Source of the DNA: Planctomycetota bacterium
GTDB taxonomy: Bacteria; Planctomycetota; Planctomycetia; Planctomycetales; Planctomycetaceae
Assembly (NCBI GenBank): GCA_003388505.1
Contig: QQVO01000015.1
Coordinates: forward strand, 319,501 to 383,500
Length of the DNA stretch: 64,000 bases
Reading direction: 5' to 3'
Shown: positions 33,491-34,460 of the stretch, in pieces
Layout: every line of letters begins with the position of its first letter
How positions within the stretch are numbered: position 1 is the stretch's first letter
Made by a program: the position numbers and the translations under genes
The notes under the pieces: model-generated
Told to the model about the DNA's origin: nothing
The model's database searches: none
Seen by the model: only the letters and a program-made list of their open reading frames with translations

Positions 33491-33562
33491 GTACGCCAAC
33501 GGCGTACCACAGCGAAGCCAGGGGTCAGCGAGCAACGCGAGCGCCACCCCTGGTTGGAAGCT
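33491..33562. repeat. 72-bp palindromic repeat, left copy
   Basis: Identical base for base to 34341-34412, with two hairpins inside (7-bp and 8-bp stems). Confidence 0.9.
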
Positions 33563-33608
33563 CCACGGATCCGTGAGAACTCTGAAAGAGTTCCACAGCA
33601 CCCCCGTC

Positions 33609-34064
33609 TCAGTCCCAGACGTACCGCTCGTCGTACTCCACCCCGTACTTCCGCAACAACCGACGAAACTCGTCCTGAAACGTCTCGCGACGATGATGCT
33701 CCGCCTGCGTCGCAATGTAAGTTCGCAACGGTTCCACATGCGAAGGACTCACCGAAAACGCCCCATATCCCGTCTGCCACGAAAACGCCTGCAGATCGGA
33801 GGAACGATCCTTCACCCACTTGGATGACTCCTTCTTCAGTTCTCGCAGCAAATCTGCGATCGTCAACACCCTTCCCAAACGACACAAAACGTGGACATGA
33901 TCCTCAACGCCTCCGACTTCAATCGCCGGACACTCCAGATTGTTGCATGCACCAGCCAGGTACGCGTGAAGCGCGCTCCGCAAATCGGCATCCTGCAAGA
34001 ACGGCCTGCGATCTTTGGTCGAGAAGATGATATGCAGATAGATTTGCGCCAACGACTGCGGCAT
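33609..34064 (-). CDS. REP-associated tyrosine transposase (IS200/IS605 TnpA-like)
   Basis: 151 residues from ATG 34064 with GGGAGC upstream. It is a Y1 HUH transposase: HUH histidines H56 and H58 in VEDHVHVL, and a probable catalytic Tyr116 in LRTYIATQAEHH. The N-terminal QIYLHIIFSTKDRRPFL and the FSWQTGYGAFSVS segment are family hallmarks. Such enzymes nick single-stranded hairpin DNA. The flanking identical 72-bp repeats and hairpins make it a RAYT that probably spreads or maintains REP sequences, and the frame is intact. No TnpB or accessory gene is present. Confidence 0.92.
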   Translation of the reverse strand: MPQSLAQIYLHIIFSTKDRRPFLQDADLRSALHAYLAGACNNLECPAIEVGGVEDHVHVLCRLGRVLTIADLLRELKKESSKWVKDRSSDLQAFSWQTGYGAFSVSPSHVEPLRTYIATQAEHHRRETFQDEFRRLLRKYGVEYDERYVWD

Positions 34065-34085
34065 TGTCCCGCTCCCATCTTGTTG

Positions 34086-34202
34086 ACAGCGCACAGGCTG
34101 TCGAACGCCTTCAGCGTTCTTGCGAATTCGCGGCTCGCGAACCGGGGGTTCGCTCCTGTCGGAGCGACCCCCGGCTGCGCTGTGCGACGCCTTCAGCGTC
34201 GC
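34086..34202. repeat. Cluster of five hairpins beside the RAYT gene
   Basis: Visible stems: GACAG/CTGTC (34086-34103); GAACGC-CTTCA-GCGTTC (34104-34120); TTCGCG-GCT-CGCGAA (34128-34142); a 14-bp stem with one bulge, CCGGGGGTTCGCTCC/GGAGCGACCCCCGG (34142-34174); and GCGACGC-CTTCA-GCGTCGC (34184-34202). Two of them share the loop CTTCA, which suggests a family relation. Confidence 0.8.
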
Positions 34203-34340
34203 TCACTTACAGCACATTTGATGGCAAGTCTCCGTCTCCCGGGTTCCGTCGATCAACGATCATGCGAATTCGGGCGGCGAAAGACCATGATCCAACACAC
34301 CGCCTGCTGTCACCACCAACGCCGGTACACGCAGCAAAAT

Positions 34341-34412
34341 GTACGCCAACGGCGTACCACAGCGAAGCCAGGGGTCAGCGAGCAACGCGAGCGCCACCCC
34401 TGGTTGGAAGCT
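34341..34412. repeat. 72-bp palindromic repeat, right copy
   Basis: Identical to 33491-33562, in the same orientation. Confidence 0.9.
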
Positions 34413-34433
34413 TCTGGACCATCCAACGCACAT

Positions 34434-34460
34434 GCGACTCGCGGAGCGAGTCGCCTACAT
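34434..34460. repeat. REP-like hairpin GCGACTCGC...GCGAGTCGC with CTACATT, copy 2
   Basis: A near-copy of 31560-31588, ending three bases before the argC stop codon. It could also serve as an argC terminator stem, although no T-run follows. Confidence 0.6.

Follow-up and report, generated by a model that had tools for sequence, protein, structure and literature searches.

A subclass 1.2 Y1 transposase gene of a planctomycete lies between inverted three-hairpin modules that are also dispersed without it: a probable REPtron-like unit

Introduction

Small tyrosine (Y1) transposase genes flanked by palindromes may be insertion sequences (IS) or may belong to systems of repetitive extragenic palindromes (REPs) served by REP-associated tyrosine transposases (RAYTs), and the locus described here raises the question of which of these it is. 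It lies in a window of 64,000 nucleotides from a Planctomycetota bacterium (Planctomycetaceae; assembly GCA_003388505.1, contig QQVO01000015.1, positions 319,501 to 383,500), part of a genome of 6.8 Mb in 78 contigs; positions given without a contig name are those of the window. An earlier note had described a RAYT gene flanked by two identical 72-bp repeats and accompanied by a cluster of hairpins. With a probability that we put at about 0.72, the locus represents a mobile unit of REPtron-like type, in which a single-domain Y1 HUH nuclease of subclass 1.2 lies between inverted three-hairpin ends, the gene-less modules being its dispersed non-autonomous population.

Results

The element spans 33491-34202 and carries at each end a module of about 105 nt with three hairpins, the two ends being mutually inverted (Table 1). 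Side-by-side comparison of copies gives the module order as the A1 hairpin with an ACAG tail, NNAG as foot of the large B hairpin, about 22 nt, and the A2 hairpin with a NACAG tail. The two 72-mers are indeed 100% identical and contain two hairpins each, GTACGCC-AAC-GGCGTAC and the large CCAGGGGT...ACCCCTGG, which are A1 and B of one end. They had been taken for a complete, sequence-identical set, but past the gene start and before the copy at 34341 comes the real left end; the 72-mers therefore do not bound a single element and represent one end fragment and an extra copy. Their similarity stops at both 72-mer edges, which fits the recent local copying or gene conversion, here of an A1+B unit, that had been suggested. 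The cluster noted beside the gene start holds up for the hairpins of the left end, including two with CTTCA loops, whereas the hairpin at 34434-34454, which has a CTAC tail (REP to 34458) and adjoins the extra 72-mer, is of a different, GTAG-REP type. The small-hairpin patterns match once each in the window and never in its dinucleotide shuffles, and the right-end A2 pattern has 26 copies in the genome against none for the reversed control.

Table 1. Parts of the element and the neighbouring repeat copy. R1 is a covariance model built from 20 hand-picked module ends of several species.
Feature	Position	Strand	Remarks
Right-end module A1-B-A2	33491..33598	+	Read inwards on the + strand; R1 match C1:352990-353098
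72-nt repeat copy 1	33491..33562	+	A1 hairpin 33491-33507, tail CACAG, foot GAAG 33514-33517, B hairpin 33518-33553
Right-end A2 hairpin	33577..33598	+	GAACTCTGAAAGAGTTC + CACAG; next to the 3' end of the gene
Y1 HUH transposase gene, 151 aa	33609..34064	-	Pfam Y1_Tnp; subclass 1.2 signature
Left-end module, inverted relative to the right end	34098..34202	-	R1 match C1:353598-353702, E 3.8e-16
Left-end A2 hairpin	34098..34119	-	GAACGCTGAAGGCGTTC + GACAG
Left-end B hairpin	34142..34174	-	CCGGGGGTCGC...GAACCCCCGG; 5' foot GCAG at 34175-34178
Left-end A1 hairpin	34184..34202	-	GCGACGCTGAAGGCGTCGC, tail ACAG
72-nt repeat copy 2	34341..34412	+	Extra A1+B fragment of a right end, outside the element, lacking A2; weak R1 match, E 4.7e-6

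The encoded protein is a Y1 HUH transposase (Y1_Tnp, E 2.3e-23) with the catalytic residues H56, H58 and Y116 that had been named. Its motifs are DHVH at 55-58 (D55, H56, V57, H58), W96 Q97 and YIATQAEHH at 116-124 (Y116, Q120, H123, H124); the catalytic residues are invariant across 43 aligned homologues, which also keep the C-terminus DERYVW, and the Y---Q--HH signature occurs in 106 of 107 homologues. TnpA(Y1) subclass 1.2 is characterized by DH[IV]H, WQ and a YIKNQKEHH-type motif, a length of about 148 aa and a C-terminal tail specific to it (PMC6006769), and by motif the window enzyme belongs to it. The RAYT label had to be given up, given YIATQ in place of Y---NP, a score of 26.6 bits on NCBIfam REP_Tyr_transpos against a curated cut-off of 80, and a nearest fold that is IS200/IS605 TnpA. 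The protein passes the IS200/IS605 model (56.2 bits, cut-off 55), as matched by all 43 homologues at E<=0.001, and the nearest solved structures by sequence are the TnpA proteins of IS608 and ISDra2; these fit its AlphaFold2 model (mean predicted local distance difference test score 87.7) with Z 14-15, whereas 4er8, a RAYT structure, reaches Z 9.4.

The earlier note's idea of REP spreading would have lost its footing had the repeats occurred only at this locus, which is not the case because they are dispersed genome-wide. A search with the 72-mer returned six matches of 64-72 nt at E<1e-15, both window copies included, and gene-less copies occur elsewhere in the genome, while R1 gave 72 module matches at E<=0.1. 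Of the 70 modules tabulated, 34 are arranged as 17 pairs that face inwards across gaps mostly of 3-16 nt, and the sole outward-facing neighbour is the extra window copy. There are three copies of the gene, namely two cognate ones, 88% identical, and a 37% homologue; the second cognate gene, on contig C15, adjoins its own copy of the 72-mer. With about 70 modules for two cognate genes, the module population is overwhelmingly gene-less. The ratio of nonsynonymous to synonymous substitution rates (dN/dS) is about 0.12 between the two own-genome copies and 0.11 between orthologues of two related genomes (G106 and G093), and by these values the gene is under purifying selection.

The arrangement of the window element recurs around homologues in Planctomycetota, Verrucomicrobiota, Bacteroidota, Acidobacteriota and other phyla (phylum assignments of single contigs from metagenome-assembled genomes, MAGs, being those of the records, and the homologues examined being from outside the cyanobacterial members of subclass 1.2). 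Hairpins stand at matching distances on either side of the gene in homologues from many phyla: stems of at least 7 occur within 150 nt on both sides at 34 of 86 loci, whereas three shuffles gave 0 of 86 each and a distance of 500-650 nt gave two of 86. At most homologous loci R1 finds a '+' module just upstream and a '-' module just downstream of the gene. The stems are kept by compensatory change. In a hand-picked set of 20 sequences aligned with MAFFT without regard to structure, we counted 66 compensatory cells against 20 after shuffling; a larger alignment, whose pair and foot counts lean towards the model because it was fitted to it, has all 23 pairs varying on both sides, with 529 cells against 107 shuffled, and the signal collapses once the pairing partners are slid. 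NNAG directly precedes B in 139 of 150 aligned modules and the foot is GTAG in only four. The 3' ACAG tail, considered as a conserved signature, is valid in the own genome; elsewhere the tail of the A hairpins is NAYA, and NNAG before B is the better conserved. A search of Rfam with the modules returned nothing above threshold.

All 21 genomes reached through homologous loci contain modules. Their number runs from 2 in Kaistella and Frigoriflavimonas to at least 148 in Ca. Anammoxibacter; a Desulfococcaceae isolate has 129, a Blastocatellia MAG 110 and a Hydrogenedentota MAG 97, and 44 were counted in Belliella. Copies of the transposase gene, by contrast, number only 1-7 per genome and have diverged. 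At several loci (L164, in Desulfococcaceae HSG8, L119 and L187) a number of modules crowd into a few kb, around the gene or close to it.

Module copies also follow the transposase among relatives, a comparison that had been proposed earlier. In 120 genomes of the family, with the transposase called at E<=1e-30 and at most 33 module candidates scored per genome, modules are present in 49 of 57 genomes with the transposase and 19 of 63 without it (odds ratio 14, p 4e-10, in a test that ignores phylogeny). Ten or more copies, counted among the candidates scored, are found in 33 of the 57 and 6 of the 63.

Comparison of orthologous sites reveals presence and absence of the units. At one locus the gene and its ends are present in G106 and G093, and G031 and G116 have instead about 200-256 bp of other intergenic sequence; in addition, three gene-less units (E1-E3) within 13 kb of G106 are absent at the orthologous sites of congeners, and one of the three recurs elsewhere in G106 at 99% identity. 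None of E1-E3 has a clean target duplication, their boundaries being blurred; one possible 7-bp repeat occurs at G106 C137.

Other Y1 genes and REPs in the same genome

The 37% homologue (G000:C2:132068-132685; L097, L311, L312) is a subclass-1.2-like gene with its own TAG-foot hairpin, TAGCCGTGAGCGTCAGCTCATGG, on both sides and in about 23 copies in the genome. Seven more genes or fragments of the Y1_Tnp family (L100-L106, on G000 contigs C53, C4, C46, C22, C6, C9 and C13) were seen, several with Y---NP (RAYT type, class 2) and some flanked by hairpins of their own (CACTGGCGGGACGCCAGTG; CGCACGCTGGCAGCGTGCG-CTAC). Contigs C1 and C2 carry classic GTAG-REPs (hairpin + CTAC) of several families (GGCCGGCACAGCCGGCC, CGCACGCTGGCAGCGTGCG, CGCACGCAAGGCTGCGTGCG, CCGAAGTCTCACGACTTCGG), with 54 CTAC tails against an average of about 8 per tetramer in 744 kb.

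Discussion

The locus falls on the IS200 side of the family and forms a REPIN/RAYT-like system (REPINs being REP doublets forming hairpins), and its enzyme is not a RAYT. It shares with the REPtrons of E. coli and Pseudomonas a Y1 HUH gene in low copy, flanking palindromes with a 5' tetranucleotide foot, and inverted pairs dispersed without the gene. Theirs, however, is a Y---NP enzyme with a GTAG/GTGG foot and a single REP of 20-40 nt, whereas here Y---Q--HH and an NNAG foot go with a three-hairpin module. The part of the earlier note that saw a REP/RAYT-like arrangement in a planctomycete thus stands, but not its novelty there: REPs and tyrosine transposases, GTAG REPs included, have already been reported in planctomycetes (PMC3733652). 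What is new is which enzyme group these hairpins accompany.

Subclass 1.2 comprises IS200-like proteins without IS properties; Quentin et al. (2018, PMC6006769) tabulate it without a REP and report it chiefly from Cyanobacteria and Bacteroidetes. Our enzyme shares the motifs, the length of about 150 aa and the low number of diverged gene copies, and differs in having a defined module with dispersed copies and in being common in Planctomycetota and present in several other phyla. The flanking and dispersed modules depart from the published description of the subclass, not from its defining sequence criteria. Because copies of these blocks lie scattered, gene-less, through this genome and many unrelated bacterial ones, an enzyme group listed without a DNA partner very probably has one. 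Two further systems bear some resemblance. TIRYTs/TIRtrons (Di Nocera et al. 2013, PMC3733652) likewise combine a tyrosine transposase gene with longer, inverted, partly self-complementary flanking repeats, some of them dispersed, but TIRYTs are RAYT-like and their shared motif GGGGWSAS is not described as an A1-B-A2 module. TnpA class 3, for which atypical, high-copy hairpins have been described in planctomycetes, has Y----Q, a CnGA foot and 178 aa (PMC6006769), unlike the window protein. We found no description of the module, its layout or its dispersal in the literature searched, which covered few subscription papers, and a text search for the B-hairpin motif gave only unrelated matches; the novelty is provisional.

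The foremost alternative, which we consider unlikely, is an ordinary IS200-type insertion sequence whose enzyme moves its own gene by peel-and-paste, the dispersed modules being decayed remnants resembling miniature inverted-repeat transposable elements (MITEs). In its favour are the passed IS200/IS605 model, the closest folds and a gene-bearing unit that is present or absent between congeners. With IS608 and ISDra2 (subclass 1.1) the window unit also has in common hairpin ends and a Y---Q motif that holds the catalytic Tyr. In IS608, both ends have a same-strand layout. The ends of the window element are instead inverted, REPIN-like, multi-hairpin modules, not one subterminal hairpin with a same-strand guide; at both ends of IS200/IS605 the guide precedes the hairpin on its 5' side (PMC6006769). 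Against an average of 4.8 copies at 99.4% identity in subclass 1.1 (PMC6006769 Table 1), gene copies are few and diverged here, gene-less modules far outnumber genes, and the gene is under purifying selection.

The case for a REPtron-like unit is built from sequence and a structural model, and several points weigh against it, among them the limits given with the counts above, namely a family test that takes no account of phylogeny, family counts with a ceiling on the candidates scored per genome, and an alignment fitted to its model. Nineteen genomes without a detected transposase hold modules, often congeners of carriers; these may be relics, or the genes may have been missed, or the modules mobilized in trans. 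The absences at orthologous sites could be losses, gain and loss not being distinguishable at every site. Copies in the own genome gave no convincing, clean target duplication, their boundaries being blurred, and those compared do not fix the exact termini or target rule. Several of these modules (e.g. G000:C2:145232-145456 and C48:20514-20744) continue outward for about 55 nt up to an imperfect terminal motif that they have in common, GTKACACACAACTC, and that often follows CTGTC of another palindrome; it may represent true termini or a target preference.

A further point against the REPtron-like reading comes from a relative, G046, where the abundant copies lie inside an element with terminal inverted repeats (TIRs; CAACGCYGTGAAGG) and 9-bp target duplications (e.g. 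CCCCGCAAC, CCCGTTGGG, CCCTGCCCC), so that a DDE-type enzyme, not the Y1 enzyme, probably spread them; G046 was dropped as proof of Y1 activity. Two MITE-like elements with the common TIR CAACGCYGTKAAGG were seen there (L246-L265, L115): a larger one of about 340 bp, which contains hairpin modules and has 9-bp target duplications, and a smaller one, about 120 bp long, that sits within A-type hairpins and has the duplication CCCGTTGGG. These copies lend some colour to the view that the modules in general are passengers of DDE transposons, with the Y1 gene incidental or serving another function. We regard this as improbable, since in many phyla the gene is bordered by these very modules, since modules track the gene, the TIR pattern occurs in only 14 of 265 loci, all 14 from G046, and clean duplications are missing from the own genome and from E1-E3; the units around the G046 Y1 gene itself are without the G046 TIRs. 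Least probable is an RNA-level role as terminators or mRNA stabilizers, with gene proximity secondary: strong GC-rich stems do adjoin genes and such roles are given to known REPs (PMC6006769), but an ordered A1-B-A2 mirrored around the gene, a conserved foot, the correlation with the transposase and the lack of an Rfam match speak against it.

If the REPtron-like reading is right, the gene-less copies, as inward-facing pairs or single modules, would stand to the enzyme as REPINs do to RAYTs. Modules would fold once replication or repair exposes single strands; a TnpA dimer could then bind the folded hairpins, with the NNAG foot as guide, and cleave through Tyr116 with formation of a 5' phosphotyrosine link, and rejoining would copy or move the modules. 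Subclass 1.2 could even be a separate, independently organized REP system of many phyla, defined by three hairpins and the NNAG foot, possibly a surviving intermediate between IS200 transposases and domesticated RAYTs and copying its modules actively today, a proposition whose chances we see as evenly balanced.

Conclusions

Our results tie a dispersed repeat family of many phyla to an enzyme, with the caution that unrelated transposons can capture and amplify such modules. The precise, covarying partner module makes binding and cleavage by subclass 1.2 enzymes directly testable, and the finding bears on the route that led from IS200 transposases to RAYTs.
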